This document shows, in pieces, positions 4,911 to 63,930 of a stretch of 64,000 nt of DNA. Within the stretch, counting starts at the first letter, position 1. Every line of letters starts with the position of its first letter. Both the position numbers and the translations under genes were made by a program. Location of the stretch: NCBI GenBank assembly GCA_963920765.1, contig OY987248.1, positions 5,428,539 through 5,492,538 on the forward strand. Reading direction: 5' to 3'. The notes beneath the pieces were generated by a model, which was not told the origin of the DNA, ran no database searches, and was given only the letters and a program-made list of their open reading frames with translations. The DNA comes from Ulota crispa. Its lineage: Eukaryota > Streptophyta > Bryopsida > Orthotrichales > Orthotrichaceae.

Positions 4911-6239
4911 CCCCTAAAGGGCAATTGTTCCCTTAAGGGACAAATGGGATTTTGGGCATGTACCTGCATCTAAACTACTTTGTGTGATTTATTGAAACTT
5001 TTATAGAAAATGGGGACTTCAAAAATCTATGTAGGCATCTAATTTTTTCTTCATTCCAACATTTATTGCAGTAGTTATGCAAGAATTTATCAAAACTAGG
5101 AAATGAGTGGCAATTTGAGTAGGACCTCTTCTTTGTAAGTGGGTGTTAACTCCAAAGAGAGTCAGCCTTTATGGGCACAAGGTATGTACACTTGGACAAA
5201 TGAGAGTGGAGTGAAAGGAGTCCATCTTGGGGGACTCCCAACCCTCCGTTTTTTTTTCCCCTTGTAAAATTTGATACTTCCATTTTTTAAGGGAATTGAT
5301 ATGTGCACACCGGGGGGTTGATAATTGCACACCCCCCTGTGGGATAAATTATAGATTCTTACCATCAGAAAGGTGAATTTGAGAATTATGAATTCAAATT
5401 TGGACTTAGAGACCATGATTTAGTCTAGAACCATTAAAAAAAGTTGCAAATGAACAACTCCTAGTGAAAAAGCTTAGATAGGGGAAAAGTGTTACTTTTA
5501 CTTTATAAAAAAATATAAGCTTTTTGACTAGGTGTTCAATTGAAACATTTTTTTATGGTTCTAGACTAAATCATGGTCATTGAGTCCAAATTTGAATTCA
5601 AAATTCTCAAATTCACCTTTCTGATGGTAGAAATCTATAATTTACCTCCTAGAGGGGTGTGCAAATATCAACCCCCCGGTGTGCACATATCAATTCCCTT
5701 TTTTAAAAGGTTTATGTTTATTTTTTAATTAATTTTTTTTTCCAAATTGTAATGGGCTAAGAGCTCTTGCCTTTCATTGTTTAGATTAATATAACTCAAA
5801 TTTATGAATTTATATAAATCCTCCAATTTTGCCTAGTTTACTTGCAAATTGCAAAACCTTCTGGCATTCAAAGGTTTTTTGAAGTATGTTTTACACCTCC
5901 AATTCATTTGAAAATTGTCCCCTAGATATCTAACTTGGTCTTCTACATGAATAAAATAAACCTCAACTTTGTGTAGAGAATTTTTTTTCTATAAGAGTGG
6001 TCAAAGGCTTCTGAAATATTCGGGCAATAGGGAAAAAAATAAAAATTCTTCTCTTCAAATGTTAATATCTCACTTCTCATCATTTAAAATGACCTAATTT
6101 TTTTCCCACAAGTACCTCCCATGGTCTAGAGCAAGATCCTATGGTTATATTTTCAAAAATACTTTTTTTCCTACATTTCTACTCATTCCCCAAAAGTGGC
6201 AATTTTGGTGATTTTCACATAAAAAAGGGTCTTTAGGGG
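4911..6239 (+). mobile_element. piggyBac-like MITE, family PB-A, with nested hAT-type MITE
   Basis: Ends are CCCCTAAAGGG at the left and GGTCTTTAGGGG at the right; TTAA follows at 6240-6243, while the left flank is GGTA. The body is colinear with the ~0.9 kb family at 42939, 44990 and 56536: GGGCATGTACCT, then AAACTACTTTG, then CTTCATTCCAACATTTATTG, and at the far end AAAAGTGGCAATTTT. The extra 408 bp at 5291-5698 account for the greater length. No coding capacity is seen. Confidence 0.7.
5291..5698. mobile_element. hAT-type foldback MITE, 408 bp
   Basis: A near-perfect palindrome with ends GGGAATTGATATGTGCACAC and GTGTGCACATATCAATTCCC. It is flanked on both sides by the same 8 bases, TTTTTTAA (5283-5290, 5699-5706). 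An 8-bp duplication is the hallmark of hAT transposition. Related PB-A copies (for example at ~56930) lack the insertion, which confirms it as a discrete mobile unit. A relative lies at 60223-60637. Confidence 0.8.
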
Positions 6240-6243
6240 TTAA

Positions 6244-8560
6244 TAAGTGGGAAAAACATACAAACTCCATGCTAAAGACAAAATTCAATGTTTGATAAGA
6301 ATTAAAATTTGAGAGAACAACAAAAGAATTATAAAGCCATGTATGGAGCAAACAACAAATTTAGAACTTGAAAATGGTATTCAAATAATACTTTACAAGA
6401 AACATAAGAATTTTGGGGATTTGAGTTTTTTAAAGTCAAAAAAATGAAAATTCAATCAAACATGGGAATTTGCCCTTAGGCACATTTTATACTTGGCTTG
6501 GGGCTTGATGGAAGGCCATCTTGGTTCAAAGATCTTTTGGCCTTCAATCTAGCCCTAGTTCATGCAATCAACCCTAGTGGGGTTATAAAACCAAGCTTCT
6601 GCATACCTTACCTTGGCCTCCACTAGATTGGACTATAATTCAAGGCTATTTGCATGATGTTAATATTTTCTTACTTTTAGGGTTGCTTAATGCCATGCTT
6701 GCGACGTCAATCAACCAACACAAAAAAGTGACAAATCCATGAAAGAGACAAATTTGGGAGGTTTTGTAAACTTTTGAGTTGAAATGTAGGAAGGTTGCTA
6801 TCATTATGAACAAGGGTTGGTGGCCAATGTTGGGAAAAACATTTACAACAATTTTCCTTTTTTTATTAGAAGGAAATGAAGAAGATTTTTGTTTTGATTT
6901 TTGTGAGTATATTAATTAGCATGTATCAAACTTGAAAGTATGATTAAAAAAAAACATCCATTGAAGAAGTGGTAAAATTGTCTACATACTAACCTTTAAA
7001 GTTCCATTCAAAATTTATGATATTTTCATCTTAGGTACAAATTACAGTTGGATTCACTTTGATATATTTAAAATTTATATGAAGTTTTTAGTTTGAAAAT
7101 TTTGACAAAAAATAAATGGAGGACCAAATTGGCTCTTGATTCATTGAATTGATAATTGCTCTGAATGGTTTTATATTGAGACAAATTTTTAAGCAAAATA
7201 GAAAGTACACTTGATTCTTTTATTTTGTTTGTTCAATAAAAAATCCATATTTTAAAAGTGAAAACTAATTTTGACCAAACCGGGAACATAATGTATCATT
7301 GTGGTCCTTTAGGAATTAAAGGAAATAAGATTTTCATGAAATTTTCTAGCTGGATTTTTTTCATTTGCAAGTTTAATTAGAAATTTTAAATGTTTATTAA
7401 ATTGTTTTGAAAATGAATAGATAAATCAGATTCCACGAAAGTTTCTTAAATCCACCATATTATATTTTAACAAAGTAAGACAAGCTATGAATGATTATAG
7501 TACAATAGGATAAGAACATATTCTCAAATACTAATGAACTGCCAATTTATTGTGAACTTCTATCAATTTTCTTATTGATAAATAGAAAAGGCCACAATAC
7601 TTTTGTTAAGGCACTATACAATGTTTTTTCAAATCATTTGTAATGTGGTAAATAAATTAGTGCTTCCATCCATTTGTCGTGTAAGGTTCAATTAGAAAAG
7701 TCAACATAGAATTAATCTTTACATTTTCATAAATAAGTTGAATATGAATATAACTTCAGTATAACATAACATGACAAATCATTCATTCAAATTATCATCT
7801 TATAACATTTTCATATTTAAGTGACCCTTTTATAAAAATAACGGAATTAAAAGAAAATTATTTTGTTTTATTTTATCTTTTGATTTTTCATTTCTTTATT
7901 TCACTTCCTTTTTAGTTTTCTATTTTTTTGCCTTTTCTAATCTTATTTTAATCTTTTTTAAACTATATTTAATTTAATTTTACCATACTTATTATTATGT
8001 GTCTTCTAGTAGATTTTTTCATCAACTTATTTATACTGAATCTCTTGCCAATTTCTACCTTTGCAATATGGTGAATATTAAAAGGAAAGAGATTGTAGTA
8101 TCAATGGTTTTATTTCTTGCACTCATATTTGGTTCCAATTCCATATTAACAATTATGTAATTGATTATGCTTTCAAACAACTTTTCAATTTTTTTCATGG
8201 TCTTTCTACTATTGCAAAATGATTCAAGGGCATAAGAACGCTCAATTCAAAGATATCAGAAACAATAAAAATTTCTACATAATTAATTATTGAGGCTTTA
8301 TACAAATAAAATATTTAAAGCTCAATTAAGAGTAAATAAAGACACTTTCTACTTCTTATATTAAGTTTTAGAGCCAAGTATAAAAAAATTAGTACTTCAA
8401 TGACTAGAAGTAGCAATTACACTTGCTAGACTTACAAATTACAATTGACAACACGTTATTTATAATTACAAATCTATATGATATAGTTGAAAGTGTTACG
8501 TCTATAATTGTCCAAAGCAGTTGTCAAGCCATAAAAATTTATTTGCTCCCTAAAGTGATA
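6244..8560. other. AT-rich DNA, nothing recognised
   Basis: Long runs of A and T with no clear inverted ends, tandem array or exon. Short open frames here have no coding character. Degenerate transposon flank upstream of the Harbinger relic may be included, since a full transposase would need coding sequence before 8566. Confidence 0.4.
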
Positions 8561-9110: not shown

Positions 9111-10206
9111 CTTCAATATGCGTTGGGCAAGAGAAGCATAGAAGGATATTAAAGACTCTTCAAATCAGACTTTGAAAACCCCTAAATTGCAAAACATGAT
9201 ACTACAACACTTTTTTATTTTCAAAGATCCTATAAAGCAAATGAAAACTATATTATAGCCTCCCATAGAAGTTTTTAAATCAGCACTACCACAACATAAT
9301 GGAAATGGTCTGGAATCTTTGGAAGTCAGTATAAGATCTTTAAAATTGAAAAATAAAAAAGAAGACTATATCAAGAAGATGTTGCACAAATTTTTTGGCA
9401 ACTTTATTTAGCAAAAAAAAACAAAAATAACCTTCCTTGGAGCACATGAAAAGGAAAGTGATTCTAAATAGACATATTTTGTGTTTTTAAATTATTTTCA
9501 TAGGTACACTTCAAGTTTATAGTGGTTTTTGTCCAATAAGTTGAATAATTGTATGAAATTTAACATAACTATTATTTCTCTTCTTAAGAGTAGAGAGCTT
9601 TCTTTAAATTAAAAATTAAAAATAAATCAAATAATGTTGCAATGCTTTTACATAAGGAATTTAATTTTTGCTACCATTATGGAACTCATTGTCATTTAGT
9701 CTTTCACAATTTTGACTACTCTTTCCATTATTATTTCATTCTCTTCTCAAATATATTTATACAAAGTTGTGTATCAGTAAATGCCTTTATAATTTTATAG
9801 TCTTTCATGTATTTTCAAATAAGCCTTTCTATGAGCAAAAAAAAGTTGAACATTCATTTATAAAATAATAATTTATTTTTTTAAAATTTATTCGTTTTCA
9901 ATTTTAAAACCATATACACAATTGATATTTTTCATATACAACATTTTTACTTTAGTATTTTTTTTATGATTTGAAGAAACTATGCCATGTGCCACTAACA
10001 ACACTTTTTGTACTTGTTTTTAATTTTAGTCATTGACAATTGATATGTTATTTATTTATTTTAAATTTTTAATCATTTTAGAATAATTTTGATTTTAGGA
10101 GATTATGTTTATTGTTTATATTTACATTTTTCCATTTTGTCAAATTTAATTGTTTGTTAAGGTTTTGTAGAAGGTATTATAGATTATGAGAATTTTTTTA
10201 ATGTTT
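9111..10206. other. very AT-rich DNA, nothing recognised
   Basis: Low-complexity A/T runs, no inverted ends or coding exon found. It may hold the eroded 3' part of the Harbinger element. Confidence 0.35.
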
Positions 10207-10350
10207 TTTCTTAATTAACTAGAAACATATAATTTAGTCCTATTTAATTATTTATAAAAATAAATTGCGTACTTTACAACTTACAAATTATTTTAATTTA
10301 CCCTTTTTATTTTTGCACTTCCAAATATAAAAATTTAATTATTAAATACT
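10207..10350 (+). repeat. left member of direct repeat flanking a Helitron relic
   Basis: About 140 bp here (from AACTAGAAACATATAATTTA) are clearly similar, in the same orientation, to 12252-12400 (GACTAGAAACATGTTAGTC onward, then TTACA.CTTACAAA and TTAATTATTAA). The pair brackets the Helitron coding remains. Confidence 0.55.
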
Positions 10351-10469
10351 AGTATACTACCAGTCATACTAACGAGATTATGTGTGACATGTGCCCCTCA
10401 AATTTTACTTTAATCCATTTTTTACTTTAGTTAAATTTGAACTCTACTCTATTTTTAAGTGGAACTAAA

Positions 10470-12060
10470 GATGGATTTTGCAAAACTGCCATCCTCACCT
10501 ATGGAACCGTCGAGTGTGACCACCGCCTGATATTCAATTATTATATAGATGTATTGCTTCAAGAGACAGCATGCTAGGAATATGTGCTCACTCTAGTCTT
10601 GCGGATGAAGAATGTACACGCAAAATTGCATCTATGTCATGCGCTTGAAGCCACCTCTTTTTTTGATTGCATTGGGTTCATCGTTGATGAAATTTATGCC
10701 ATCAAACTAAAAGCCTTGTAGCGGGATATCCAATGACCGTCCTTGACGTCCATTGGAAAATAAAGGGACATCATGCAATGGAGAATAAACAAAGTGCATA
10801 AAAGATATGCTTTGGAGCGGTTTGTGCAACCTCTTCACAACAATATTGCGATCCAAAATATTGCCGTCGTGACCATCACCTACCAAAATTCCACCGACCT
10901 CGTCTGCAGTAGGCATATTATACTTGCAACAATCTTGCAATTGCAACGACAATAGTCGGAGTTCCAAATTAACCGTAGGTTCAGTAGTCATCCGTTGACA
11001 AACATTTTTGTAAAGTTGTGCATATGAATTGTGTTGTTGCAGCATAAGCTGCAATTGCTTTATTGTGTTGCAATCAAGACTTTCAAAAATACTCATTCAT
11101 CCATTTAAAGATGTGATGTTGTCGGCAATGTACAACTGCAAAAAACTTTGGTTCTCACCCTCAGCTAGCAAGACTTCCCATCCAATGATATAGAGAGCCT
11201 TGAATTTGGAATGTGTCATTCCCTCCTTGTGTAAATTGCTTGTCAATGTTAGCACCAAATTATGCGAACAACAGTGCGCTATTGTATGCATAAATATTAC
11301 CGCGGAACACCTTTGCCTCACGTTTATTGTCTTGCAATAAACTCCTCAACGACTCTAGAGGGACAACCAAAGGTGGAGTATTGACTTTGCCTAGATTGCA
11401 ACATATTATAAAAAAAAGATGCGTTGCGACTATAATATTTCCGTGAACTCATAGATGCTCTTTGAATGAGATGATTCTGTGTACACGTGAAGTCAATCCT
11501 CAAATCCCCATATGTATTAGGTTGATCTTATTAATATTATCATTTCCTCTTTACATCACTTGGATTTCTTGTATCTCACCCCTATTGCTTCTCACATTCT
11601 CTCTTTTATAGTATGGAAGATGGTTCAACTGTTTGATAACTTCCTGTTCTAACCGCTCTTTTCTAATTGATTGTTTACTACTAACATATTCTTGGTTAAT
11701 CTCTATACCTGGTGAACCAAGTTAAATTTCTACGTGCAACAACGCCATGCTGGAGCCTGATCCAGTGATTCGCTCCTCCATCTAGTGTAAAGCTTGGTAC
11801 ATTCTGCATCCTACGCTCATTTGCAATAGTAAGTGACGTATAGAGCCTACAGCAACATTCAAATTTTGACTCGCCAATGGAACTTGCCAAAATTCCGTAG
11901 CGTTCCTAGCACGTTGTTGTTGTCGCATATTGTTTTGCTGCTTGCGCTCATTGTCACTGCGTTCGGCACATTGTTGTCGTCGCATATGATTCTGCCGCAA
12001 GCGCATACAATTCTGCTGCTCACCGCGGACTTCTTCAAGGAAGTTTGGTTGTGACATATT
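10470..12060 (-). mobile_element. decayed Helitron replication-protein N-terminal region
   Basis: Read right to left on the minus strand, the order matches the Helitron-like N-terminal domain. 12057-11782 encodes an Arg/Gln-rich start leading to a cysteine-type CRMYQALH motif. Near 11400, CCNLGKVNTPPL resembles the zinc-finger-like CCxxGKVxLPP block. 11321-11097 contains FKALYIIGWEVLLAEGENQ then SFLQLYIADN. 11096-10707 contains LQQHNSYAQLYKN, YNMPTADEVGG, RNIVVKR and PLQSISFMHFVYSPLHDVPL. About 10680-10520 adds KQYI-like remains. Frames are broken in several places and there may be an inserted stretch at 11460-11690. The HUH nickase and the helicase were not found, so this is a truncated, dead copy. 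Confidence 0.7.
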
Positions 12061-12251
12061 TCCAAATCCTAGTATATACCAAAGAAAGAGAGGATATACA
12101 TAAAAAAATCCTCCTCTACTATTTATCCATGGAAATCTTTACTTAAAGTAGATCTTGTGACTCCCACTATCCCCATGCCCCCCTATCTCCATGCCCTCTT
12201 TAGGCCAAGAAAAAGTTGTGGTGCAACTACCAGTGGCATGTTGTTTTTTTT

Positions 12252-12400
12252 TCATTGACTAGAAACATGTTAGTCTTATTTAATTATTTGTAAAAAAAAT
12301 TCATACTTTACAGCTTACAAAATATTTTGATTTCAAATTTTTCTTTTTCTTTTTATACTTCCAGATGTAAAAAATTAATTATTAATTATTACTTTCTTTT
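12252..12400 (+). repeat. right member of direct repeat flanking a Helitron relic
   Basis: Partner of 10207-10350 in the same orientation. Both pieces have an ACTACCAGT motif close to the Helitron side (10358 and 12226 area). Confidence 0.55.
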
Positions 12401-12603
12401 AGTTACAAAATGTGTGGATTCAATAGAGAAACAATAATGTTTATTTTAGAAAAATTGTACTTAATTTAATCAATATACATTGTCTAGGTGTTTAGAAATG
12501 CATAATATTATGTTGTAAGAAATAAGGAGTTCATTGAATGACTATTCTTCAATTTTGGTTATAATTTCTCATCAAAGCCACTATTTCTTAACCTTATTTA
12601 TTA

Positions 12604-12970
12604 CTCCCTTCGTCCCAAAATGATTTTGTTACACAAAATGTTATAGATTAAGCTAAAAAAGAACCATTTTTCAAATTTTTTTGACCCATGAAAAGAGTTT
12701 AGGGTCCTCCTATTATTCTGAAATTTTGAGATTCCAATTAGTTTTCAAATTAGTTTTCAAAGTGTGGTTTCAAAGTGCTTGACAATTGAATTTTTGAGGC
12801 ATTTTTGAAGAGCACCAATGGCCATTCACTTGATGGCATGGGATAGGTTAGCATGCCCATGATTTTGGATTATGTGCAAGTGTCGCTAGCTCCTTTCCTC
12901 CTTCAACAAGAAGATCATTTTGGGACACTAAATAAAAGTCAACAAGAAGGTCATTTTGGGACAGAGGGAG
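12604..12970. mobile_element. Stowaway-type MITE
   Basis: The left end CTCCCTTCGTCCCAAAATGA pairs with the right end TCATTTTGGGACAGAGGGAG. Both sides carry TA (12602-12603, 12971-12972). The CTCCCTCCGTCCC-like terminus is the classic plant Stowaway (Tc1/mariner) signature. It is 367 bp and non-coding. Near the right end the subterminal AAGTCAACAAGAAGGTCATT block is partly duplicated. Confidence 0.85.
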
Positions 12971-12972
12971 TA

Positions 12973-13344
12973 ATACCCAATCTAAAGCTTTATTTCATAT
13001 TGCATATTATTTAACCTCCTAATGCTTGTGCATTCATGAAATAGATGATGAACAAATTTAGAGTATGATGAACTATAGGCAAAAATCTCTTTTTATTGAA
13101 TTTAAAAGCACAGTAACTCAACATTGACATTACAAAAATTAGTTTGCCATTGCTTACAAAGGTTGGTACATAAAGATGATTGATGTGCAAGCATGCATGC
13201 TAAAAAAATGTTTTTGTGTGCACAATGCATTCATTAGAAGAAGGTACATTGTACATTGACAAATTTAAATGATTCTTCAGCTTTAGACATTAGGTAGGAT
13301 AGTAACCTATAGAAATTACAAGTACCCGTAATGAAAATAACTCA
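12973..13344. other. intergenic, nothing recognised
   Basis: No inverted ends, coding exon or array was visible. Confidence 0.35.
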
Positions 13345-13470
13345 CTTGGATTATATTTTTTCAATCTTTTCACTTCTAGTCATGCACATTATATCTTAGA
13401 GTTTGCTCTTGGATTATATTTTTTCAATCTTTTCACTTCTAGTCATGCACATTATATCTTAGAGTTTGCT
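13345..13470 (+). repeat. 63-bp tandem duplication
   Basis: The unit beginning CTTGGATTATATTTTTTCAA and ending TTAGAGTTTGCT occurs twice, back to back (13345-13407 and 13408-13470), with no difference that I can see. The identity suggests a recent duplication or an assembly repeat. Confidence 0.85.
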
Positions 13471-14590
13471 AAAAAGAGTCTATAAAATCTTGAATAAGAT
13501 TTACCTTAACTACTTTGCTAATATCACAATGCTAAAAGACAAACTTATTGGCTTATAAAAGCCCATATTAAAAAATACAAGCTTTTGTTCAAGCAAATTA
13601 TGTCCAATATCCATTACTCCTAAAGCAAAAGCAACATTAATATTGGTTTATGTAGTTTTTATTTTATTTTATCTTTTATGCACTAAAAATATTTTATGCC
13701 TATATTAGTACATTAAATATTTTTGCTTTTGAATATTAGACCCAAAGCAAAGGTGTACCTACTTACCCAAATTTAAAAAAATGGCTTGGCTTCTATTTTT
13801 GCAAAAACTAATAATATAAAAATTAGCAAGTTGCTTGCAAATATGAATATTCTTTAATAAAAATTTATCTTTGAAAATGTTAAGCCAATTTGCTTAAGTA
13901 ACTACAAAAAAAATCAAGTTTTTTGTTATTACTGGGCATGATACAAACATTATAAACATATGTTTTTTGGATTTTTTGAACAAAGTTGAACATATTTTGA
14001 ATGGTACTCTTGGGTTGTGGCAAAAATTAGGGTATATGTTTTATGTTGTATAGCCAAAAATACTATAAATATACTATGGTTGAAGTAAACAACAAATCAC
14101 CTTTTAAAAAGATTATACCAAGTTTTTCATTTCAAAATCTTTTCAAATAACCTTATTCAATTACTTTGTTGAATTTGGCTCTTTTTCAAAGGAGAAATGT
14201 ATTTTATATCAGATTTATAACATCATTTGTGGTGTTGTTTGAATTCAACTAAAGTAATTTCCTACCCAATATATAGCTATAGGATTTTTTTTAAAGAACA
14301 AAGGGGCAATATGATATGCAAATCAAAAAAAGAAAGCCACAATTTTGTATTTGATAATTGTATTTTACTGTAGAAGAAACTAGTACAAAGAATTCATAAC
14401 ATGTTAATAACACCATATTATGTAAATTGGGAAAAATAGTACATTTTGGGACTTCTGAAGGATTAAGGTGATCACCTTAATCCGAGCTCCAACATTTTTT
14501 TGGGTACTCGTGCCCTCACTTGAGAGGAGGAATTTGCGAGGGAAAAAATCTTAGTGGCACAGACTAAATTTATTACCTTTGAATCTTGTA
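13471..14590. other. AT-rich intergenic DNA with one short palindrome
   Basis: No gene or transposon was recognised. A perfect 24-base palindrome lies at 14460-14483 (arm GGATTAAGGTGA). Confidence 0.35.
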
Positions 14591-14829
14591 CCCCTAAAGG
14601 ATGTTGCCTACCAAAAGTGTTGTATGTATTTGTACAAGAACCATTTAGTACTTGAAGAAATGACTATATGACAAATACAAAAAAATTCTCAAAAAATCCC
14701 AATTGAGTAGAAGTATGTTTATAACATGGGTTGAAATTCACAACTCCAATGGGATTCATGTGCTACCCAATTGCCCCATCTGTATACAACACAAGATTCC
14801 GTATACAAAACAACAACATCCTTTAAGGG
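14591..14829 (+). mobile_element. small piggyBac-like MITE, twin 1
   Basis: Ends are CCCCTAAAGGATGTTG and CAACATCCTTTAAGGG, followed by TTAA at 14830-14833; the left flank is TGTA. It is 239 bp and differs at only a handful of bases from 15371-15607, which lies in the same orientation. Confidence 0.7.
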
Positions 14830-14904
14830 TTAAGGTAACTTTTTGGGTTTAAGGTGGAGTACAAAATGGGACCTCTATTTTTCCCAACTTACCTAATATG
14901 GTAT

Positions 14905-15345
14905 TTAATCTAAATCTTCTCAACAAGCGTTTCTATGTGCTTGTCAAAATTACCCATAAATCTATTAGCAACCTTCATACTACTAGCCATATCTTTGATG
15001 TTGTCTACAAGCTTCAAAATAAACAAAATTTGTTTCTGATATTTCAATTTTCCATTTACATTTTTTTTCTTTAATGTAAATAACGTTTTCAGCTCCAGAT
15101 CTTCTACTTTGACCTTTGTTGGGCCACCCTCTTCATTGTCCAGATTACTAGAAAAAAACATAAACGTATTTCAACACATATCCATTTTAATGATATCAAA
15201 CATCCATTGAGTTGTAGAACATCAGGTGTGGAGTGCTTCTCTAAAAATACTATTTACTTGCTTGTAGTCCTTGTATATCTTGTACACTTTATTGAATTTA
15301 CTCTTACAAGCATTTGAGGCCGTATTCTTAAAATTAGGCTGAAGG
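14905..15345 (-). pseudogene. decayed Myb/SANT-like protein of Harbinger type
   Basis: On the minus strand, about 15345-15200 reads TASNACKSKFNKVYKIYKDY then KQVNSIFREAL, matching the third helix and linker of plant Myb/SANT-like (trihelix-related) domains that accompany PIF/Harbinger transposases. CSTTQWMFDIIKMDM follows after a stop, like the usual W(E)MxxxI segment. The open frame 15161-14910 (83 codons) then gives a Lys-rich tail and a helical end (DNIKDMASSMKVANRFMGN). In-frame stops show the gene is dead. It lies between twin TTAA MITEs. Confidence 0.5.
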
Positions 15346-15370
15346 TATGGGAGCCTAGAGTGTAGCTTAA

Positions 15371-15607
15371 CCCTTAAAGGATGTTGCCTATCAAAAATGT
15401 TGTATGTATTTGTACAAGAACCATTTAGTACTTGAAGAAATGATTATATGACAAATACAAAAAAATTCTCAAAAATTCCAATTGACTAAAAGTATGTTTA
15501 TAACATGGGTTGAAATTTACAACTCTAATGAGATTCATGTGCTACCCAAATGCCCCATCCGTATACAACACAAGATTCCGTATACAAAACAACAACATCT
15601 TTTAGGG
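15371..15607 (+). mobile_element. small piggyBac-like MITE, twin 2
   Basis: Ends are CCCTTAAAGGATGTTG and CAACATCTTTTAGGG, with perfect TTAA flanks (15367-15370 and 15608-15611). It is 237 bp and non-coding. Twin of 14591-14829. Confidence 0.85.
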
Positions 15608-15611
15608 TTAA

Positions 15612-16315
15612 TCCACATGTCGACACTTGTAAACATGAACAATTAAGAATAGTAAGCAATTAATGCAACATATGATCTTTGTAACATAAAGATGTCTAAG
15701 CACTTAGAACTTACAAATATTACGCCTATTGTTAAATCTAAAAATTTGTGTCCAATATAATACTTTTACAACTTACAATATTATAATATTATTTGTCTCA
15801 AAAAGTAGCATACAAACATTATAACATTAGTTATATCAAAAGGCAACATCTGCATCACATCATTTTTGTACCCATTATTATCTAGTAGTATGGTAAAAAA
15901 TTTATGTATGCACTCTCTGAAATATTTCTCTCTTTCTACTACAAAATATAATTATCACAATTGCAATTCAATATGAATCTCACTTACAAAACTTAATGGC
16001 CACAGACACTTTTAGAGTAGCAAGAAGAGCCCGCCTGTACACAATAGTAAACAAACAAGAGTACAACAATCTATAGTAAACACAAATTGCATACTAGACA
16101 TTGGCATTCGGGAATCCCTGGATTTCCAGCAATGGCCATGTTGAAACCACACACTCAAATTTGAAAATGTTGGAGCAATTTTTAATAGCAATTACTTGAA
16201 TTTACACCATCAAGCTAGTTTTGAATACTCTAAATTCCAACATTTAGTAATGTTTGTCTAAGAAATAGGTTTAAATAGTAATTGTTTAGAGTTTTTTTTA
16301 AATCTAAAGGTAGTA
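15612..16315. other. intergenic, nothing recognised
   Basis: AT-rich. No inverted repeat or exon was seen. Confidence 0.35.
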
Positions 16316-16613
16316 ACGTGTTATTTGTTAATTTGGTAAAAATAAAGGTACCATTTTGTACCTCACTTGAATTTGAAAAGGTCTCCTAAAATTGAATTCA
16401 AGAGGTCACCTGAAACTCTATTAATGAAATATGTCCAAAATTTTAACTTTTTGTCCAAAAAGAGTGTATTTTTTGATGATATATATCTCATTTCATTGGA
16501 AAACAATTAACGGATTCCCAATTCAATGAATATGGTGTTCTTTGGAAAAAAAAAAAAAAAAGCCAAAAGTCTCACTTTGTACGCTTTTTACCAAATTAAC
16601 AAATAACATGTTT
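16316..16613. mobile_element. MITE of unassigned superfamily
   Basis: Long inverted ends: GTGTTATTTGTTAATTTGGT at the left mirrors ACCAAATTAACAAATAACAT at the right. It is about 298 bp and non-coding, with an A-rich run at 16546-16560. The target duplication could not be fixed, so the superfamily is open. Confidence 0.55.
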
Positions 16614-16744
16614 AGTGCCTCGATGGCTTTGTCTATGCTCAACAATTGTTTCCTTTCAAATATTGTGCTTTGCATTGAGGAGGAAGTGTTACTTGTGAAA
16701 AAAATATAGCCATATTATAGCATTATCCCTAAATTAGGATTTAA

Positions 16745-17283
16745 TCCCTAAACGCCCGAGGGGTAAGGGGCAAAACATAAATGCATTATAAAATGATACT
16801 TTTGTAACTTTGATGAAGGTTGCTTCTAAAAAGAAAATAAGAATCATGATGTTCAATAATTACTCGTATAGTCAAACATTCAAAAAAAGTTTTGCACTCT
16901 TCTAAATTGAATTTATAAGCATTTACCAATTAATATTCATCAAAATTTTAAAAATTAATTCATAAAGTTTGAAATTTGGTATGATTGGTTAAAAATGGAC
17001 ATTCTATTTGAAAGTTCAAAAATGCAACAATTTTGATGGTGAGAACATCATTAGTTTCCCAAAATAGTAAATTTTGTAACACTAACAAATATTGAAGTGT
17101 TTTTCTTTGAAAAAATCTCCTTGATGGAGTTTAACTTGGATTGACATGATTCAAATTGGGTTCAAAAGTAGACCTACTTTTGTATATGAGGTTTTTTTCA
17201 ATTTTTTCAAAAAACCTTTTTTCATTTCAAGCAGCCTGAAAAAAGGACAGCGACCATAAAATGGTCGATTGGGCGTTTAGGGG
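16745..17283. mobile_element. piggyBac-like MITE, family PB-B
   Basis: The ends TCCCTAAACGCCC and GGGCGTTTAGGGG are complementary, and TTAA flanks both sides exactly (16741-16744, 17284-17287). It is 539 bp and non-coding. The terminus differs from PB-A (ACGCCC instead of AGGACC), so it is a separate subfamily. It abuts a piece of PB-C. Confidence 0.8.
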
Positions 17284-17838
17284 TTAAGCCTTATTAACTT
17301 GCAACCTATAAATTCAAAGTTCTTGAAACTTTTTTTACATATTTCAAATATTTGTCTTTAACTTTTCACTATTCAAATTTCAAACAAAAGACTTCATCAT
17401 TGCACAAGAAATCATGAAAATGACTAGTGTAATGCCAATTCACTTAACTTCCTTACATTGCAGGGTGATTAAAATAAGCTAAATTCTATATTTGCTTTAC
17501 AAAAAACATCATGAGTGAACCTAACATCATGTATGTATGAATGGTCAAAAACTTTGTTTTTGTGTAGAGCAAAAACATTACTCTAGGAGGGCTTGAAGTC
17601 TATTGACCTTAATTTGCAAGAATGAAAAAAAGTTGTTTTCTCACTTCAAACATTATAATCTTACAATCCAGGCAATCAAATAGGCTGAATTTTTTGCACA
17701 TATTGATTTTTTTTTTTAACAGACTTTTGTATAGTTGTAATTTAAAAAGGAAGTTTTTATTTTCAATTATGGGCAATGCAGAAAAAGTTAGCAATTTTTG
17801 AGATTTTTTCTCAAAAAACACCCTCTGACCTTCAAGGG
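17284..17838 (+). mobile_element. piggyBac-like MITE, family PB-C, right part only
   Basis: Colinear with the last ~560 bp of 62971-63930 (CTTGAAACTTTTTTTxACAT, GTGATTxxAATAAGCTAAA, TCATGAGTGAACCTAACATC). The right end GACCTTCAAGGG is followed by TTAA at 17839-17842. The left half is missing where PB-B begins, so it is truncated. Confidence 0.65.
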
Positions 17839-17842
17839 TTAA

Positions 17843-18107
17843 GCTCAAGTGGGTAATTTGGGCTTCTAAAAACCTTATCTCAATTTCATCACATGGACCC
17901 AAAGTATTGGCACCAAAATAATACCACCTAAGATTAGTTGTAACTAAGGCCCAACCCTAGTATAAAGCCCTTGGGTTAGACTTGAAAAATCCAAACAATC
18001 CTAGTTCAATTTAGAAACTTTGGGCCACCCTCAATCCAACCTCAAATACAAAATGGCCCTTACATACGGTGATACCCCTAATTTCCATAATTCATACTAC
18101 CATCATA
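17843..18107. other. intergenic, nothing recognised
   Basis: A short spacer between transposons, with no exon visible. Confidence 0.3.
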
Positions 18108-18340
18108 AGGTAGGAGGCTCATAAACTGACTTCTAAGGATTGAAATTGAATTTTGGGGAGGTGGAACTTCTTGAAATAGTTTTCAGTAAATTTTACTTGA
18201 AAGACAAGAGAAATTGGCATCTAACCCAAGTTTTTTCATATTTTTTGGAGCTTTATGAAATTAGTTATGAAATTTTGAAGTGGAAAGGCCATAGGGCTCT
18301 AAAACCGCCCACCTTTTTAAATGTACGTCCACTATACATT

Positions 18341-18618
18341 AGTGGTAGTCACAGTTGGTCCGAGATTCAGATTTCCATGAAGATTGAGAAAACGCAGAGT
18401 GAAATTATGAGCCAATACGATGGGAGCAACACCGCAAGATAAAACCAGAATTACAGTTCTCTCGCAAAAATCTGAAGGAAGCCATTTCTCCACGCTTGGG
18501 CAAGGATAAATTTTTTTCTCAATCTTCACGGAAAACGTCTCGCACCAATCGTGGATTGAAGGCCACATTGATTTCTATGAAGATTGCGAATGAGAAAATT
18601 CAAAGTGCGACTACCACT
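18341..18618. mobile_element. MITE family H copy 1, nested
   Basis: Inverted ends AGTGGTAGTCACAG and CGACTACCACT. Inside, TTCCATGAAGATTGAGAA and its complement occur again (AATCTTCACGGAAAA, CTATGAAGATTGCGAA). It is similar to 48847-49256 and sits at the same relative place in family G. Confidence 0.6.
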
Positions 18619-18631
18619 ATTACTGAAAGCT

Positions 18632-18723
18632 TATGAATAAGAACATATACTGGCAAAGTTCATTTGGAGAGATGAACTATGAATAAGAACATGTACTGAC
18701 AGAGTTCATTTGGAGAGATGAAC
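18632..18723 (+). repeat. 46-bp tandem duplication
   Basis: TATGAATAAGAACATRTACT through GGAGAGATGAAC occurs twice (18632-18677, 18678-18723) with about three differences. Confidence 0.8.
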
Positions 18724-18823
18724 GGTTTTAGTGCCCGACAGAGTTCGAGCCTCCTACCTTACTTGCCGGGACTCCAGCTCTCCTGGGTTCGGTCATCATG
18801 GGCTACTCCAAGATCAGGCCAAA

Positions 18824-23440: not shown

Positions 23441-23441
23441 A

Positions 23442-44468: not shown

Positions 44469-44472
44469 TTAA

Positions 44473-45916: not shown

Positions 45917-46009
45917 TTAAATGACCCCCAAATTTCATATCCTTGAATACTAGTGTAAAGCAGCCCTTAGTTTGCAGCCTTAAGTCCTTATACACCGCAA
46001 ATAGACACT

Positions 46010-46720: not shown

Positions 46721-46829
46721 CCTGCTCACTGTACCCTCCAATTTGACCAGGCTTATTTGAGGATCTTGATTTTATCCCCATTGTGTTTTAAAAAAGAATT
46801 CCATTGTGTAAAGTAGTAATTGTTTAGGA

Positions 46830-52905: not shown

Positions 52906-53831
52906 CCCCTAAAGGATCCAACCATTTTTTTGCAAAAGTCACTAAAAATGCCACTTCTAGGACAATGAGTAGAAAGATAGATATAATTTTCTTTTTGAAA
53001 ACCCAACCATAGGATCTTGCCCTATACTACAAACAGTACTTGTGGGAAAAAAATTAGCTCATTTTGGATGGCAAAGAGTGAGGTATTGACGTCTGAAGTG
53101 ACAAAAAAAAGTTATTTTCTTTCCCTTAAGTTTTTTAGAGGCCTTTGACCATTCCTATAGCAAAAAAATTACTCTACAGAAAATTGAGGTTTTAATTTCT
53201 CCATGTAGAAAACCAAGTTACACATATGTGAAAGAGTTCTCAAATGATTTGGAAGTGTACAACATACTCCAAAAAATCTTTGAATGCCGAAAGGTCTTGA
53301 AATTTGCAAGTACACTAGGCAAAATTGGATGCTTTATGTAAAATTCAGAAATTGGATTACACCAATGTAAATGGTGAAAGGCAAGTACTCTTAGTCCACA
53401 ACAACATGGAAAAATAAATAAATAAATAAATACACAAACCACTCACAAAAATAAACTGCCAAATTTTGATGGGGACAAAAGGAATGAAGGGTTGGAAGTC
53501 TTCCAAGATGGGCTCCTTTGACTCCCCTCCCCTTTGCACAAGTGTCCACACCTTGTGCCCGTAAGGGGCTGACCCTATTTGAAGTTAACACCCACTTACA
53601 ATGGAGAAACCTTGCTTGAATTGCCCCTCCTCCCCTAGTTTTGATAAATTCTTGCATACCAGTACTTTCTTTGTCAAATGTCAAAATGAAGAACAAAATT
53701 AGATGCCCACCGAGATCTTTGAATTCCCCATCTTCAATAAAAGCTTCAAAAATTTACATAAAGTAGTTCAGCCACAAGTATATGCCCAAAATCCCATTTT
53801 GTCCCTTGAGGGGACAACAGTCCATTAGGGG
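52906..53831 (-). mobile_element. piggyBac-like MITE, family PB-A
   Basis: Ends CCCCTAAAGGATCC and AGTCCATTAGGGG. Flanks are CTAAA on both sides instead of TTAA. 926 bp, arm A first. Frames inside (53391-53696) are fortuitous. Confidence 0.7.
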
Positions 53832-54577: not shown

Positions 54578-55016
54578 GGTATTCTGAACCTTGCACGCCT
54601 ACCCCCCACAACAGATTGTCAAGTGTGGCAAATATCTCCAGAATGGGTCCCATGATTTTGTCATGAGGCTCACATACGAAGGAGTGGGAGCCATGCATAC
54701 AGCCACCCCTTGCCCTGCCTTGTCCCTGCAAACTCCTTCTGCTCCGCTGCTTGTTTTGTACACAAATAATGTGCCACTGCCTACATTTTTGCTGCAGCAA
54801 AAACCTAATTTTCTCACATGTGGCGGTTAAGAGTGTGGGAATGGGGAGTGAGAAGTTTGCTATATATGTAGATATAGAAATAAACAAATGAATAACTATA
54901 CTACGTTGGTACCTCTCTAAGTTGATCCTTCATAACCTTAGCCTTTGTAAAATTATGTGTATGCATTTTTCTTCTTAAAGGTTGATTGTCGATGAAGGTT
55001 GCAAACTTCATGGGTA
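54578..55016. other. spacer of moderate GC, possible host remnant
   Basis: A 105-codon minus frame (54887-54570) overlaps plus-strand frames and shows no family motif. Nothing certain. Confidence 0.25.
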
Positions 55017-55432
55017 AGGTATGTCCACCCAAAAGTGACACTTACTTTAGATATGGGAATTGGGAGGGTCTTTTGAGAACCTAATGGCATGGGCTTGTTA
55101 GGAAATGGGTGCATATTCAAACAAAATTGTTTTCATAATTTTTTGAATTTGTATGAATAAATTATGAATTATTTAAGGTAACTCCCTAGATTGACCTATT
55201 GTGAACACTAGATCCTTGAAAAAGCGATAACAAAAAGATCATGTCTTGATAATAAAAAAACAATGTCATACCCAATCATAAATCACTATTTCCACAATTT
55301 ATGTTTCCTTATGCCAATTTAAGTGTTTGGTTTGGATACATGTGTGTCTTGTTTGGGTGCAGAAGTGCTTACTGTTGGGTTTAATTTCAGATGTCAATAA
55401 ACGGCTGGTGTGAGTGATGGGTGTACATACCT
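55017..55432 (+). mobile_element. TA-type MITE, family K copy 4
   Basis: Ends AGGTATGTCCACCCAAAAGT and GGGTGTACATACCT, TA on both sides (55015-55016, 55433-55434). 416 bp; closest to copy 2. Confidence 0.8.
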
Positions 55433-55434
55433 TA

Positions 55435-55809: not shown

Positions 55810-57426
55810 CCCTTGTAGGACGGGCCTACAACCATGGATTTTCTATGGAATTGCAATCATCTTTTAGGAGTTATTTTGGTAATGTAATCAACATTAAAGT
55901 TCAATATTATAATTTTTGTAGAAAAAAGTATGTGCATACTACATGTATAAAAAGTATTTATAAATTTCGGGGGAAAAATGAAAACATTGTAATTTTTTGA
56001 AACAAATGGTAAAGATATTCATAATAATTATAAAATGTACTCAATTATGTAAAGCTTTTTTTATCATGGATGTGAATCATGATGAAGATAATCATGATGG
56101 ATTTTTTCTTCCCATCTTGGTAAAATTAGAAAAAGTAACCATTCCATGGTAGTAGGTACTCAACTTGTGGCAGTAATAAATTTTCAAAACTTAAATTTTT
56201 TCAAAATCTTAAAGTACAAGGAGAAACTAGATTTGCTAAACTTTCTATAGCTAGTTAAGCTCAAACCAAACACACATGATTTTAATAACTCATATTGGGC
56301 TTTGGTAAAAAGATCCTCAAATTTTAAAATAAACTACACAGCGGTGCATCTTTACTACTCAATTGGCAAGTGGGACCCTTTTGTGAACATCGTGCATGCA
56401 AAAGCTATCTATTTACATGCTCTAAATTGCATTCTTCATATCCCAACAAAATCTTGAATGGAAAACAATGTTATTTCACTATAAGAGCACTTTTTAGTCA
56501 TCAAGAAGCCACAAAATGACCACTTTGACCTTTAAGCCCTAAAGGCCCATTGTCCCCTCGGGGGACACATGGGATTTTGGGCAGGTACCTATGGCTAAAC
56601 TACTTTGCGTGATTTTCTGAAACTTTTATTGAAGATGGGGAATTATAAGATCTGCATGGGAATCTAAATTTTCCTTCATTTTGACAGTTATTGAAGAAGT
56701 TGTGCATGAATAATTGAAAAACATGGGAGAATTGGGCAGCAAAAAAAAAAATTTACAACTTTTTTAAATAAAATTTTGAAATTGGTTCTTTAAATTTTTA
56801 TGTATTTGGGAAGCTTTGAATCATTCAATTCTAATAAATGAGATGAAAGTTCTGAGAAGTTTTAGTTATGGGACTCCCAAACCTCCATTCCTTTTCCCCC
56901 TTGTAAAACTTGTTGCTTTACTTTTTTGAGCTCTTTATGTTTTTTTTTTTTTGAATTTTTTTTTTGCAAGTTGTAGTAGACTAAGATTCCTTGGTTTTCA
57001 CCATTTGGATCAAAGTAATTCACATTTCTCAAATTTACATAAATCCTCCAATTTTACCTAGTGTATATGCAAATTTCATGACCTTACGGCATTGCAAGAT
57101 TGATTTGCACTTCTGTTTCATTTGAAAATTCTCCCACATTTACCTAACTTGGTTTTCTACATGGGAAAAATAAACCTCAACTTTGCAAAGAGCAATTTTT
57201 TTGATATAGGAGCCATCAAAGGCTTTTGAAATTTTTGGATAGCAAGGAAAAAACTTTTGTTTTCACTTCAGATGTCAATATCTCACTCCTCTACAACTAA
57301 AATGAGCTGATTTTTTTTCCACAAATACCTCCCATAGTGTAGGGCAAGATTTTCTGGTTGGATTTCCAAAAAACAAATATGACATTTCTCCTCACTCCCC
57401 CAAAAAGGATCCTTAGGGGTTAAGAG
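55810..57426 (+). mobile_element. piggyBac-like MITE, family PB-D copy 2, split by a PB-A element
   Basis: The left end CCCTTGTAGGACGGGCC follows TTAA (55806-55809). The right end is split: ...GACCTTTAA lies before the insert and TTAAGAG then TTAA (57427-57430) after it. Removing the insert and one TTAA restores CCTTTAAGAG, the expected right terminus. Confidence 0.8.
56536..57419 (+). mobile_element. piggyBac-like MITE, family PB-A, nested in PB-D
   Basis: Ends GCCCTAAAGGCCC and GGATCCTTAGGGG, perfect TTAA flanks (56532-56535, 57420-57423). 884 bp, arm B first. The target TTAA belongs to the right terminal repeat of PB-D copy 2. Confidence 0.9.
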
Positions 57427-59483: not shown

Positions 59484-60193
59484 AGTGTACCCTTGTACCC
59501 GCCATTTTGGCGGAGGGCCATCACGGGAGGGGTCCTTGCAAAAATATTAACATGACCTTCCTCATAATCACCCTCTTCAAGCTTCTTCTCCTTTCCGTCC
59601 AATGAGCTTAAATGTACTATGCCTACCTACACGCTTTGCCTCCTTCTCCAAGCAACACCCCCTATTCCTGTGTATACCCCATCTCCAAAGACGACCATAA
59701 TCGCCAAAAAACCATTGAAATAAGAATATCCACCACATAATTGCCACTTAATCTTCTTGTAGCAACACCCAACTACCCAACTAATAGAATTAAGCTTATT
59801 ATTNNNNNNNNNNNNNNNNNNNNNNNNNNNNNNNNNNNNNNNNNNNNNNNNNNNNNNNNNNNNNNNNNNNNNNNNNNNNNNNNNNNNNNNNNNNNNNNNN
59901 NNNNNNNNNNNNNNNNNNNNNNNNNNNNNNNNNNNNNNNNNNNNNNNNNNNNNNNNNNNNNNNNNNNNNNNNNNNNNNNNNNNNNNNNNNNNNNNNNNNN
60001 NNNACACGGGAATAGGGGGTGTTGCTTGGAGAAGGAGGCAAAGCGTGTAGGTAGGCATAGTACATTTAAGCTCATTGGACGGAAAGGAGAAGAAGCTTGA
60101 AGAGGGTGATTATGAGGAAGGTCATGTTAATATTTTTGCAAGGACCCCTCCCGTGATGGCCCTCCGCCAAAATGGCGGGTACAAGGGTCCACT
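59484..60193. mobile_element. foldback element interrupted by a gap
   Basis: Left arm from AGTGTACCCTTGTACCCGCC, right arm to GGCGGGTACAAGGGTCCACT. The arms mirror each other for at least 190 bp (CCATCACGGGAGGGGTCCTT, GTAGGTAGGCATAGTACATT). AT microsatellites lie at both edges (59463-59483, 60194-60211), which hides any target duplication. Frames across the gap are meaningless. Confidence 0.75.
59804..60003. other. assembly gap, 200 N
   Basis: Exactly 200 unknown bases near the centre of the foldback at 59484-60193. Confidence 0.99.
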
Positions 60194-60222: not shown

Positions 60223-60634
60223 GGGAATTAATATGTGTACTGCACCCTTTCAATTATTGTACCACACCCCAGAGAAAATTTTAGATTTCTACCATCAAAA
60301 AGCTGAATTTGAGAATCTGGAATTTAGATTTGGACTTATAGACCATGATTTAGTTTAAAACCACAAGAGAAGTTGCAATTCAACAACACCCAATGAAAAA
60401 ACTTATCTTTTTTTTACAAATAAAAGTAAAAGTAACACTTTTCTCTCCCTAGCTAAACTTTTTCATTGGGTGTTGTTGAATTGCATCTTCTTTTGTGGTT
60501 CTAGACTAAATCATAGTCTCTAAGTCCAAATTTGAATTCCAAATTCTCAAATTCAGCTTTTTGATGGTTGAAATCTAAAATTTTCTCTAGGGGTGTGGTA
60601 CAATAATTGAAAGGGTGCAGTACACATATTAATT

Positions 60635-60669: not shown

Positions 60670-61182
60670 TCCACGAACCAGCTCTTGATCATTGGTTTAA
60701 AAGGTATTTAGTGGAGGCCTCTTTAATTTGTAGTTTTTAAAAACAAATGCACAAATTAACAAATTAACCCTCAACAATGTGCAAAAATTAAGGCCACTAG
60801 TTCCCTATAAAAAGATTTACACTTGGCATATGCCACATGGTAGTCACTATGCAACTTTTGTGACTATATGGCCACCATGTTCTTTAACATGGCCACAACT
60901 GAATTCAACTTTTATATTCTTAAACTTCTAAAATACGAGCATTCTAAATTGTTGACTAACCTCTCATTTGAGGGGGTGTTGCAATGCAAGCAATTTAATG
61001 CTTTGTCATAATTAATACAATATCAAGTATTTGCATGTAAAAAATGAGTTTGTCAATTAATGATAAAACACAAATTAACTTTCATGATGTGCATAAATTA
61101 GGCTAATTTGTTAATTTTTGACAAAAGGTAACTTAAAGAGTCCTGAATTTTAGTGTAAATCACCTTTGATCCCAATTGGTAT
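60638..61182. other. AT microsatellite and intergenic DNA
   Basis: (AT)n at 60638-60666, then sequence with nothing recognised. Confidence 0.4.
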
Positions 61183-61186
61183 TTAA

Positions 61187-61412
61187 TCCTTAAACAACTA
61201 TAGGGCATAGTGTATATGTTTATGTATAATTGTCATTTGCTACCAATGAGAAATTTTAATTTGGGATCTCAAGTAGCTCACTAGAACCACATTGGTCTAT
61301 TCTCCAATTTCTTTGTTGGTCTCAACTATAGTAGAGGTGTGGATCCATTCCAAATACAAGAAAAATACCACGTATTGTACTAGTCACAAAGGGCCTTTTG
61401 TTCGTTTAAGGG
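61187..61412. mobile_element. small piggyBac-like MITE, 226 bp
   Basis: Ends TCCTTAAACAACTATAGGGC and TTGTTCGTTTAAGGG. Left flank TTAA (61183-61186), right flank TTAG. Non-coding. Confidence 0.6.
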
Positions 61413-61616
61413 TTAGCACAAGTGACTATTATGTGGTTATTGAGATATGTAGCATACCTTAGATTTGGAATTGAGTTCATTTTCTAAGGCATAATTAGTA
61501 GTATTTTGAGCCACCAAAGCTACTAAGGAAAATCACAAGTGGGATTGTCACACTAGTAATAACATTTATTGTTGGCAACACTAATTATTAAGTATAACAT
61601 CATAACACTAAAAACA

Positions 61617-62861
61617 AGTGCGACATTAAATCGTGCCCACAAAAGTGGGCCTGGCCAACATGGCGCGCAAGGCTGGGCATGGACCCAACCGCGACCCGTC
61701 GTCTGGCTGGTTCACCTTATCCTGCATTCTCTCATCTTGCATCCAATGCCTTGCATCCTACGCAATATACTAAGCCCATTCTATTCAAATACCACTTGTA
61801 AGGAAGAATGGGGGGTTTTTTCCATATTGTTTGGCGCCATAGGTGAGTTACTTAAGTTACAAGAAGGACCACTTTAGAGAGAAGAAATACACAACTTCAT
61901 TTCTTTCTTAGTGAAGAGTCTAAAGAAAGTATCAAAAATGCCCCTCAATTCTTTAAAAATATCATATATAACCCTCAAAAGATTTGAAATATCAAAAATA
62001 TGCATGGTTTTTGTGTACAAATATCAAAAATACCCTTGGCTTTTTGTAGGAACATCAATTATGTCCCCAATTATCTTTGAAAATATCATCTACATTCCTA
62101 ATTTTTTGGAAGAATATCCTCTGTCATTTTTAGATTTTAAATGTACCCTTTGGTTATTTGAAATATTAGCATATCCTTACTTCTCTTGTGCCACTTGTTG
62201 CAAACTTCTATAAATACTATATCAAAAAGGGGAATTACAAAATTAGAGAAGAATTGAATGCAAGCTCTTCAAATTCTATAAAGGGTTTTTGCATGTAAGA
62301 ATATTGTGGTTGAAGCCATTGCATTACCTACATAGAAATTTTCATTATCATTTCATTACTTACAAATAAACAAACAATAAGCAACCACAAAGAAAGTAGG
62401 GGTATTTGTGATGTTTGCAAAGATAACCAAGGGTGTAATCTAATTTATATTTGTACAAAAAATGAAAGCGGCTTGTATTGTTTCAAATAACAAAAGGGCA
62501 AGCAAAGCACATCTAATATTTAAAAATGATGAAGGGCCACTTTTGATATTTTCCTTAGATTTTCACCTAGAAAGAAACAAAGTTATGTAATTTTTCTCTC
62601 TAAAGTGGTCCTTCTTGTACCTTAAGTAACTCACCTATGGCACCGAACAATATGGAACAAACCCCCCATTCTTCCTTACAAGTGGTTTTTTGAATAGAAC
62701 GAGCTTAGTGTACTGCGTAGGATGCAGGACATTAGATGCAAGATGCGGGATGCAGGACAAGGTGGACCAGCCAGACAATGGGGTCGCGATTGGGTCCGTG
62801 CCTAGCCCTACGCACCACGTTGGCCAGGCCCACTTTTGTGGGCACGATTTAACATTGCACT
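61617..62861. mobile_element. long-terminal-inverted-repeat element, copy 2, gap-free
   Basis: Ends AGTGCGACATTAAATCGTGC and GCACGATTTAACATTGCACT. Arms of about 480 bp are diverged but plainly paired (ACTTGTAAGGAAGAATGGGG, GTGAGTTACTTAAG). Organisation parallels copy 1: GC-rich outer zone, CTTGTAAGGAAGA zone, inner ATATCAAAAATACCCTT-like motifs, single-copy centre (~62100-62380). AACA on both sides is a possible 4-bp duplication. Flanking GGCAACACTAATTA resembles the ends of 26831-27590, so it may sit in such an element. Confidence 0.75.
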
Positions 62862-62970
62862 AACAACACTACTATTGTTATCAACATTAAATTTCAATAC
62901 AAACACAATTTGCCAATATAATTTCCACCAATTTTTTAAAATAGTACCATAATAGTTTAGCATGCATTAA

Positions 62971-63930
62971 CCCCTAAAGGACCAAGAGGTTGTTCAACAA
63001 CCACTTGAGAACTTGGGTAGGGTCATATGGAGTTAATTTTTATTGGATGTCTCAACATTGTTACACAAGGTGCAAATATGTATTTCCCAAGTGGACATCT
63101 AAATTTTTCCCCAATTGGATGCGTGGTTCAAAAGTTATGTTGCCCAAAAGAAATTGGGCAGTTTGGGCTTTTTGGGCAGTTTGAGCATCTTTGGAAAATC
63201 TTATGCTAAAACTCTCATCAACTTTTGAAATTTGGCAAGTATGTAACTAAAAAAACATAGTGTACAATTGTCAAAAAATAAAATAAAATAAGCTCTCACA
63301 TCACATTTTGAAGGGAGTCAAACTTTGATAACTATGTTTGGGTAGTTTTAAGAAAAAAAATTCCTCTAACTTCAAGCCCTATTATCTTTCATTTTATAAA
63401 TCCAAAGCTCTTGAAACTTTTTTTCACATATTCCAAATGTTTGTCTCCAACTCTTTACCTTTCAAATTTCAAATAAAAGACTTCCACATTGCATAAGAAA
63501 TCATGGAAGAATGACTAATGTATTGCCAATTCACTAAACCTCCTTGCATGGGAGGGTGATTTAGAATAAGCTAAACTCTATATTTGCATCTGAAAATTTT
63601 CATGAGTGAACCTAACATCATATACTTGTGAATGGTCCAAAAGCTCAAATTTATGTAGAGTAAAAATTTTACTCTAGGAAGGCTCAAAGACTGTTGACAT
63701 TGTTTTGCAGGAATGAAAAAAGTTTTTTTCTCACTTCAAATGTTATAATCTTACAATCCGCGTAGTCAGATGGGCTGAATTTCTTTGCACACGTTGGTTT
63801 ATTGGTTTTACAAACTTTTGGTATGGTTGAAAGTGAGAATAAAGGTTTTTGTTTTTGATTTTGGGCAATGCACTAAAAGTTGGCAATTTTTAAGATTTTT
63901 TCTCAAAAAACACCCTTTGTCCTTTAGGGG
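62971..63930 (+). mobile_element. piggyBac-like MITE, family PB-C full copy
   Basis: Ends CCCCTAAAGGACCAAGAGG and CTTTGTCCTTTAGGGG, perfect TTAA flanks (62967-62970, 63931-63934). 960 bp, non-coding. Its right part matches 17284-17838. Confidence 0.85.

Follow-up and report, generated by a model that had tools for sequence, protein, structure and literature searches.

TTAA-specific miniature transposons with CCC ends, probably of piggyBac type, in a plant-like genomic sequence

A 64,000-base stretch of genomic DNA (the window) carries a dense set of TTAA-specific DNA transposons with inverted ends of the CCC(C)TWAA type. We consider that they probably form a non-autonomous, trans-mobilised set of piggyBac type in a plant. 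This assignment is made because TTAA targets and CCC ends (PMC2872659) occur here together with a palindrome centred 24–25 base pairs (bp) inside one of the two ends, though proof of membership would require a transposase. A preliminary description of the window had already placed the elements in the piggyBac superfamily from their TTAA flanks and CCC ends; both features stood up to analysis, and the palindrome is added to them. Such transposons are already known but seldom documented from land plants, which makes the host unusual; the new observation is the one-sided palindrome at bp 24–25.

Results

Ends and number of the elements

The exact word CCCTAAAGG occurs 15 times in the window, against a mean of 0.44 in shuffled sequence. 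Scanning for TTAA followed by CCCCTAAAGGACC-like ends scored 37 sites, including one (40104) that falls within an element. Each of 20 shuffles, to which an additional CC filter was applied, yielded 0–6 sites; the same filter retains 36 of the 37 real ones. From such ends 15 element pairs of 237–1329 bp were assembled, and the scanned sites account for 27 of the 30 ends. Within a pair, the two ends match at 8–13 of their outer 13 bases. Most ends begin CCCCT; the five that start with CCCT belong to the 14591/15371 and 24809 families. TTAA lies on both sides of 10 of the 15 pairs, namely all nine elements that had been described as set between two intact TTAA sites and, in addition, 42939–43857; the flanks of the other five are given in Table 1. 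Because the pairing made partial use of the flank, a separate count was made on the exact CCCTAAAGG words, chosen blind to their flanks: TTAA lies one base outside 10 of the 15 (binomial p 1.8e-18, from the TTAA frequency of the window). When inverted 13-mers lying between TTAA sites were counted without reference to a consensus, 25 emerged, four of which start with CC, and no CC-starting case arose in 30 shuffles; the rest of the 25 are mostly other palindromes and assembly duplications.

Beyond the 15 pairs we found the 55810 copy, the fragment 17286–17838 and further ends, weak or lacking a partner, at 7315, 28861, 31134, 36585, 42051, 44473/44695 and 61187/61412, so that the earlier figure of about 20 elements is a fair one. 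Element intervals total 12,680 bases, or 19.8% of the window, in line with the fifth estimated before; this figure includes two nested inserts of another kind and takes 55810–57419 as one interval. Small elements, previously given as 87–540 bp, were confirmed at 237–539 bp, and the 87-bp lower limit was not.

Target duplication and empty sites

The joined flanks of 24809–25982 match a paralogous site on the minus strand (46733–46695; 39 nt, 89.7% identity, E 3e-9), with an alignment, GCAGGGTTTAATTTTTGATTTTG, that is gapless across a single TTAA. On both points the window agrees with the preliminary description: most pairs keep TTAA at each edge, and the one clean empty site has a single TTAA. 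The flanking repeat continues past it (26005–26264 against 46280–46021, 79%), and the empty copy of the repeat is interrupted by a different repeat at 46279–46698, found also at 3155–3569 and 55013–55434. That repeat, of ~420 bp, has complementary GTAAGGTA-type ends and no TTAA flanks. The empty site may never have been filled or may have been vacated, because excision of piggyBac type restores TTAA (PMC8086355).

A second, shorter junction agrees with the single-TTAA empty site. Here 56536–57419 lies in a TTAA within the right inverted end of the 24809-type copy that starts at 55810; on its right, TTAAGAGTTAA is the counterpart of TTAAGGGTTAA at the right edge of 24809–25982, with few bases to compare on that side. 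The site of 16745–17283 was also considered as an empty site of a 62971-type copy; its left flank does not continue that copy, so it was not counted.

With TTAA as the sole target, duplications of 2, 3 and 4 bp give the same sequence. Among 18 elements, three of which were placed with some help from the flank, 31 of 36 ends nevertheless retain the outer T, and the CTAA/CTAA flanks of 40076–40769 are a non-palindromic 4-bp direct repeat. Together these favour a 4-bp duplication. Both CTAA and TAAA are described as rare piggyBac target duplications (PMC10813416).

A palindrome near bp 25 of one end

Nine of the 15 elements carry a palindrome centred at bp 24–25 that scores 6.5 or more at exactly one end. 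Seven of these nine belong to family A (defined below) or share its ends, and the palindrome sequences differ between families. For testing, a set of 21 ends was drawn up, one per family, nine of them unpaired or weak. Their best stem centred at bp 23–26 scores 4.86, against 2.89 in shuffles (z 6.4), a value that none of 500 shuffles reached, nor any of 5000 draws of 21 from 347 TTAA sites outside elements. In a profile of 14 bins the bp 23–26 bin reaches z 7.0, and no other bin exceeds 2.2; for this stem the nine unpaired ends by themselves have z 4.3. A fixed-arm test without optimisation, applied to the 12 ends of verified pairs, ranked centre 25.0 first of 102 (family-wise p 0.002). An initial hairpin test with a free centre gave p<0.05 at 5 of 30 ends but at 1 of 60 control positions in the interiors. 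Single folding of three ends gave one strong hairpin (a left end, z -6.25), one weak (z -1.97) and one case without such folding (z 0.75).

In T. ni piggyBac a palindrome at bp 17–33, centred at ~25, is bound by a dimer of the C-terminal domain (CRD), and the two ends are asymmetric (PMC7351741). The one-sided palindrome at bp 24–25 fits this plan, known from T. ni, and it favours piggyBac over Kolobok, Harbinger or mariner.

Families and age

Family A, of ~900 bp, comprises seven pairs. Six lie at 4911, 38058, 42939, 44990, 52906 and 56536; the seventh, 40076, is a palindrome built from two left ends. Elements 47765 and 49525 are closer to this family at the ends than in the interior, with a mean identity of 0.72–0.81 in the outermost columns against 0.43–0.57 in the middle. 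The other families are 14591 with 15371 (93.7% alike), 24809 with 55810, and 62971 with 17286–17838, and elements 16745 and 36961 are without relatives in the window. The elements thus share their outer ends and differ in their interiors. The six core copies of family A are 18–41% different in global alignment, copies across the whole set differ by 6% to >50%, and a consensus of eight elements holds no open frame longer than 87 codons. The elements are mostly old and non-coding.

Coding content and database scans

Pfam scans covered ~85% of the six-frame residues of the window, all except 15001–15500 and 60701–64000 on the plus strand and, on the minus strand, 24701–25000, 60701–64000, two frames of 10001–24700 and one frame of 40001–46000. 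Within this scope they returned no transposase domain and no DDD or cysteine-rich-domain protein. The sole Pfam match, to NPCC at E 0.36, scored 11.3 bits where the cut-off is 33.9 and was taken as noise. Long queries from the two minus frames of 10001–24700 found no match among solved structures up to E 0.5; such queries are insensitive, as they missed a Helitron piece that shorter queries found in one of these frames. That piece is the one clear protein remnant of the window, a broken Helitron protein on the minus strand at 11139–11412 (and ~11770–12060) that matches Helraiser (E 4.7e-5 and 5.4e-6). Searches of the window for Rfam families and tRNA genes returned none.

A 16-base pattern from the ends hit 10 viral and 39 prokaryotic stretches, which we attribute to chance recurrence of a 16-mer in databases of that size, no further element features having been sought in them; a 20-base interior pattern hit no viral stretch. 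When four end sequences were searched as strings in the literature, none of the matches listed looked related by title.

The preliminary description had gone on to propose that an active piggyBac-type transposase has worked in this lineage. Activity is not borne out here, given the scans above and the divergence among copies.

Signature of the host

The window has a CpG observed/expected ratio of 0.43, and CAG/CTG, given its dinucleotides, a ratio of 0.56, the lowest of all 64 trinucleotides. This ratio falls to 0.31–0.34 in 6 of 16 segments and reaches 1.12 in the CpG-rich segment 20001–24000; across the segments it follows CpG (rho 0.74, p 0.001), and CAC is uncorrelated. None of 49 control loci, all bacterial or viral and none eukaryotic, lies below 0.56. 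Plant-specific chromomethylases methylate CHG (PMC10952607), and we infer that such methylation depletes CAG/CTG. A plant host is therefore likely, and the plant-like origin proposed earlier gains support from this CHG-type depletion. The TTAA elements stand at 0.24 (CpG) and 0.40 (CAG/CTG), against 0.48 and 0.59 in the rest of the window, and therefore appear to have been long resident in a methylated genome. Segment 20001–24000 itself is a GC- and CpG-rich island, perhaps an unmethylated gene start, in which no protein was recognised.

Discussion

TTAA together with ends of 12–19 bp carrying CC[C/T]T is the hallmark of piggyBac (PMC2872659). T. ni piggyBac and piggyBac-like MITEs (miniature inverted-repeat transposable elements) share with the present set the TTAA duplication, CCC-starting inverted ends, a palindrome near bp 25 of one end and asymmetric ends (PMC7351741, PMC2872659); here, by comparison, no transposase was seen, the host is land-plant-like, most ends are CCCCTAAAGG, the palindrome differs by family and most elements are near 900 bp. 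The CMITEs of corals (Acropora) likewise have TTAA duplications and several families with different CCC ends, one of them CCCCT (PMC2872659), but they are ~100 bp long with a conserved interior, whereas here the ends are conserved and the interiors differ.

Several observations weigh against a piggyBac assignment. Since most ends begin CCCCT, their fourth base is often off the strict motif, and no transposase or matching autonomous element was met in the ~85% of residues scanned. Six of the 15 elements lack a strong palindrome at either end. Much of the palindrome signal comes from three ends. With these removed, z drops to 2.8 (p 0.006) over the remaining 18 and to 0.2 over the nine that come from verified pairs. 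When the fixed-arm test is applied to all 21 ends, the top two centres are 69.5 (z 3.9) and then 25.0 (z 3.4); minus the three strongest ends, 25.0 falls outside the top six. Covariation within family A is weak, at best suggestive, its score being reached by 16 of 500 shuffles and equalled by a one-column slide. Finally, the palindrome tests were chosen after hairpins had been noticed.

Other sources of such elements have to be set against these points. Kolobok also makes TTAA duplications (PMC9587614), and its MITEs are alike in this respect; we regard it, or another TTAA-duplicating superfamily, as highly improbable, since Kolobok termini are 5'-RR and YY-3' and not one of the 30 paired ends starts with two purines (they begin CC, GC, TC or AC). 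Within plants, moreover, the available text of the same source lists Kolobok for chlorophytes and rhodophytes only. PIF/Harbinger and Tc1/mariner are common plant superfamilies (PMC12550479), and their 3- or 2-bp duplications, if they happened to lie in a constant TTAA, would look identical to a 4-bp one. A duplication of that kind would, however, free an outer base that is in fact kept at most ends, and the CTAA/CTAA repeat departs from the TAA/TTA of PIF/Harbinger and the TA of Tc1/mariner, so that we find these MITEs an unlikely source. Plant Tourist and Stowaway MITEs resemble the present elements in being non-autonomous, in their inverted ends and in their plant hosts; their duplications are TAA/TTA or TA (PMC10004981), unlike the TTAA seen here.

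Two further readings concern the enzyme and the host. An undescribed plant transposase may have converged on TTAA and CCC ends, which would agree with the empty transposase scans and with curated plant surveys whose available text does not name piggyBac (PMC12550479, PMC9033089). Such convergence has a small probability in our estimation, as it would have to explain how TTAA targets, CCC termini and a palindrome confined to one end, at the position of the T. ni CRD, come to coincide. Alternatively, the DNA could have a non-plant source such as an animal, in which piggyBac MITEs would be nothing unusual. Corals are described as having similar TTAA MITEs that carry CCC ends (PMC2872659), and no gene was identified in the window from which the lineage could be read. 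The depletion of CAG/CTG, which tracks CpG as that of CAC does not, and which CHG methylation by plant-specific chromomethylases (PMC10952607) would cause, makes a non-plant origin rather improbable.

If the elements are piggyBac-type MITEs of a plant, a transposase encoded elsewhere would grip the outer 13–16 bp of their inverted ends, and its C-terminal dimer would grip the palindrome centred near bp 24–25 at one end. The element would then be cut out at TTAA and joined to another TTAA, with duplication of the four bases. It is conceivable, at somewhat less than even likelihood, that a land-plant lineage has held at least one piggyBac transposase whose C-terminal DNA-binding dimer diversified, leaving MITE families with shared outer ends and different bp-25 palindromes. 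If this is true, the plant's own elements record a change of specificity in the C-terminal DNA-binding domain of a transposase. Through the palindromes, end sequence can in any case be related in a testable way to the DNA-binding domain of the transposase.

That piggyBac occurs in plants has been claimed before. The available text of a MITE survey of 207 plant genomes, with five superfamilies and one special group, does not contain the word piggyBac (PMC12550479), nor does that of a land-plant review with six terminal inverted repeat (TIR) superfamilies (PMC9033089), which agrees with the earlier statement that piggyBac is not a usual part of land-plant genomes. Against that statement, one review names PiggyBac, giving no detail, as a MITE superfamily of angiosperms (PMC10004981), and a comparative table has it present in all groups studied, land plants included (PMC4438587). 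Piggybac-like elements in plants are also mentioned in passing (PMC8086355; PMC10813416), and repeat tables give 1,230 piggyBac fragments for a fern (PMC6890710) and one fragment of 75 bp for a grass (PMC8319324). No plant family that combines such ends with a verified TTAA duplication was met in the literature available to us. The MITE Tracker step of the 207-genome survey was limited to 50–800 bp (PMC12550479), and elements like these could be missed by plant MITE surveys or assigned to other groups. Should a plant piggyBac be verified, a transposon in wide use for gene delivery would gain new hosts, and horizontal transfer would come into question.

Coordinates and other features of the window

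Table 1. Elements with CCC-type ends and the paralogous empty site
Positions	Strand	Feature	Flanks	Remarks
4911–6239	+	family A element (~900 bp)	GGTA/TTAA	nested palindromic insert ~5289–5715
14591–14829	+	239-bp element	TGTA/TTAA	93.7% identity to 15371–15607
15371–15607	+	237-bp element	TTAA/TTAA	
16745–17283	+	539-bp element	TTAA/TTAA	palindrome CGACCAT-ttt-ATGGTCG, centre bp 25 of 3' end
17286–17838	+	fragment of 62971-type element		81% identity to right part of 62971–63930; left part not found beyond 16745–17283
24809–25982	+	1174-bp element	TTAA/TTAA	nested palindromic insert ~24955–25396
36961–37363	+	403-bp element	TCAA/TTAA	
38058–38989	-	family A element	TTAA/TTAA	terminal bases match 13/13
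40076–40769	.	palindromic element, two family A left ends	CTAA/CTAA	arms 95% identical
42939–43857	+	family A element	TTAA/TTAA	
44990–45916	+	family A element	TTAA/TTAA	palindrome CCAACTGTCCC-ctcga-GGGACAGTTGG, centre bp 25 of 5' end
46695–46733	-	paralogous empty site of 24809–25982		one TTAA; 39 nt, 89.7% identity, E 3e-9
47765–48676	-	912-bp element	TTAA/TTAA	outer ends and part of interior common with family A
49525–50403	-	879-bp element, family A-like ends	TTAA/TTAA	palindrome AAAGTCCCC-tcg-GGGGACTTT, centre bp 24 of 3' end
52906–53831	-	family A element	TAAA/CTAA	
55810–56535	+	24809-family copy without nested insert		broken near right end by 56536–57419
56536–57419	+	family A element	TTAA/TTAA	inserted in TTAA inside right end of 55810 copy
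62971–63930	+	960-bp element	TTAA/TTAA	palindrome CAAGAGGTTGTT-c-AACAACCACTTG, centre bp 25 of 5' end

The insert at 5289–5715, nested in 4911–6239, is a palindromic element of another kind that recurs at 60232–60628; the nested copy is flanked on both sides by TTTTTTAA, an 8-bp repeat (by eye), unlike the TTAA set. The palindromic insert at 24955–25396 in 24809–25982, absent from the 55810 copy, lies in an A-rich site and shows no clear duplication length.

Two gaps of exactly 200 N interrupt the window, at 34427–34626 and 59804–60003. Near-identical direct and inverted duplications (98.6–99.7%) surround the first (33438–36004) and an inverted duplication (98.6%) the second, and these duplications are likely assembly artefacts. 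A tandem array of ~22-bp units of the GGGAACTTTGGGAA type occupies 26965–27159.

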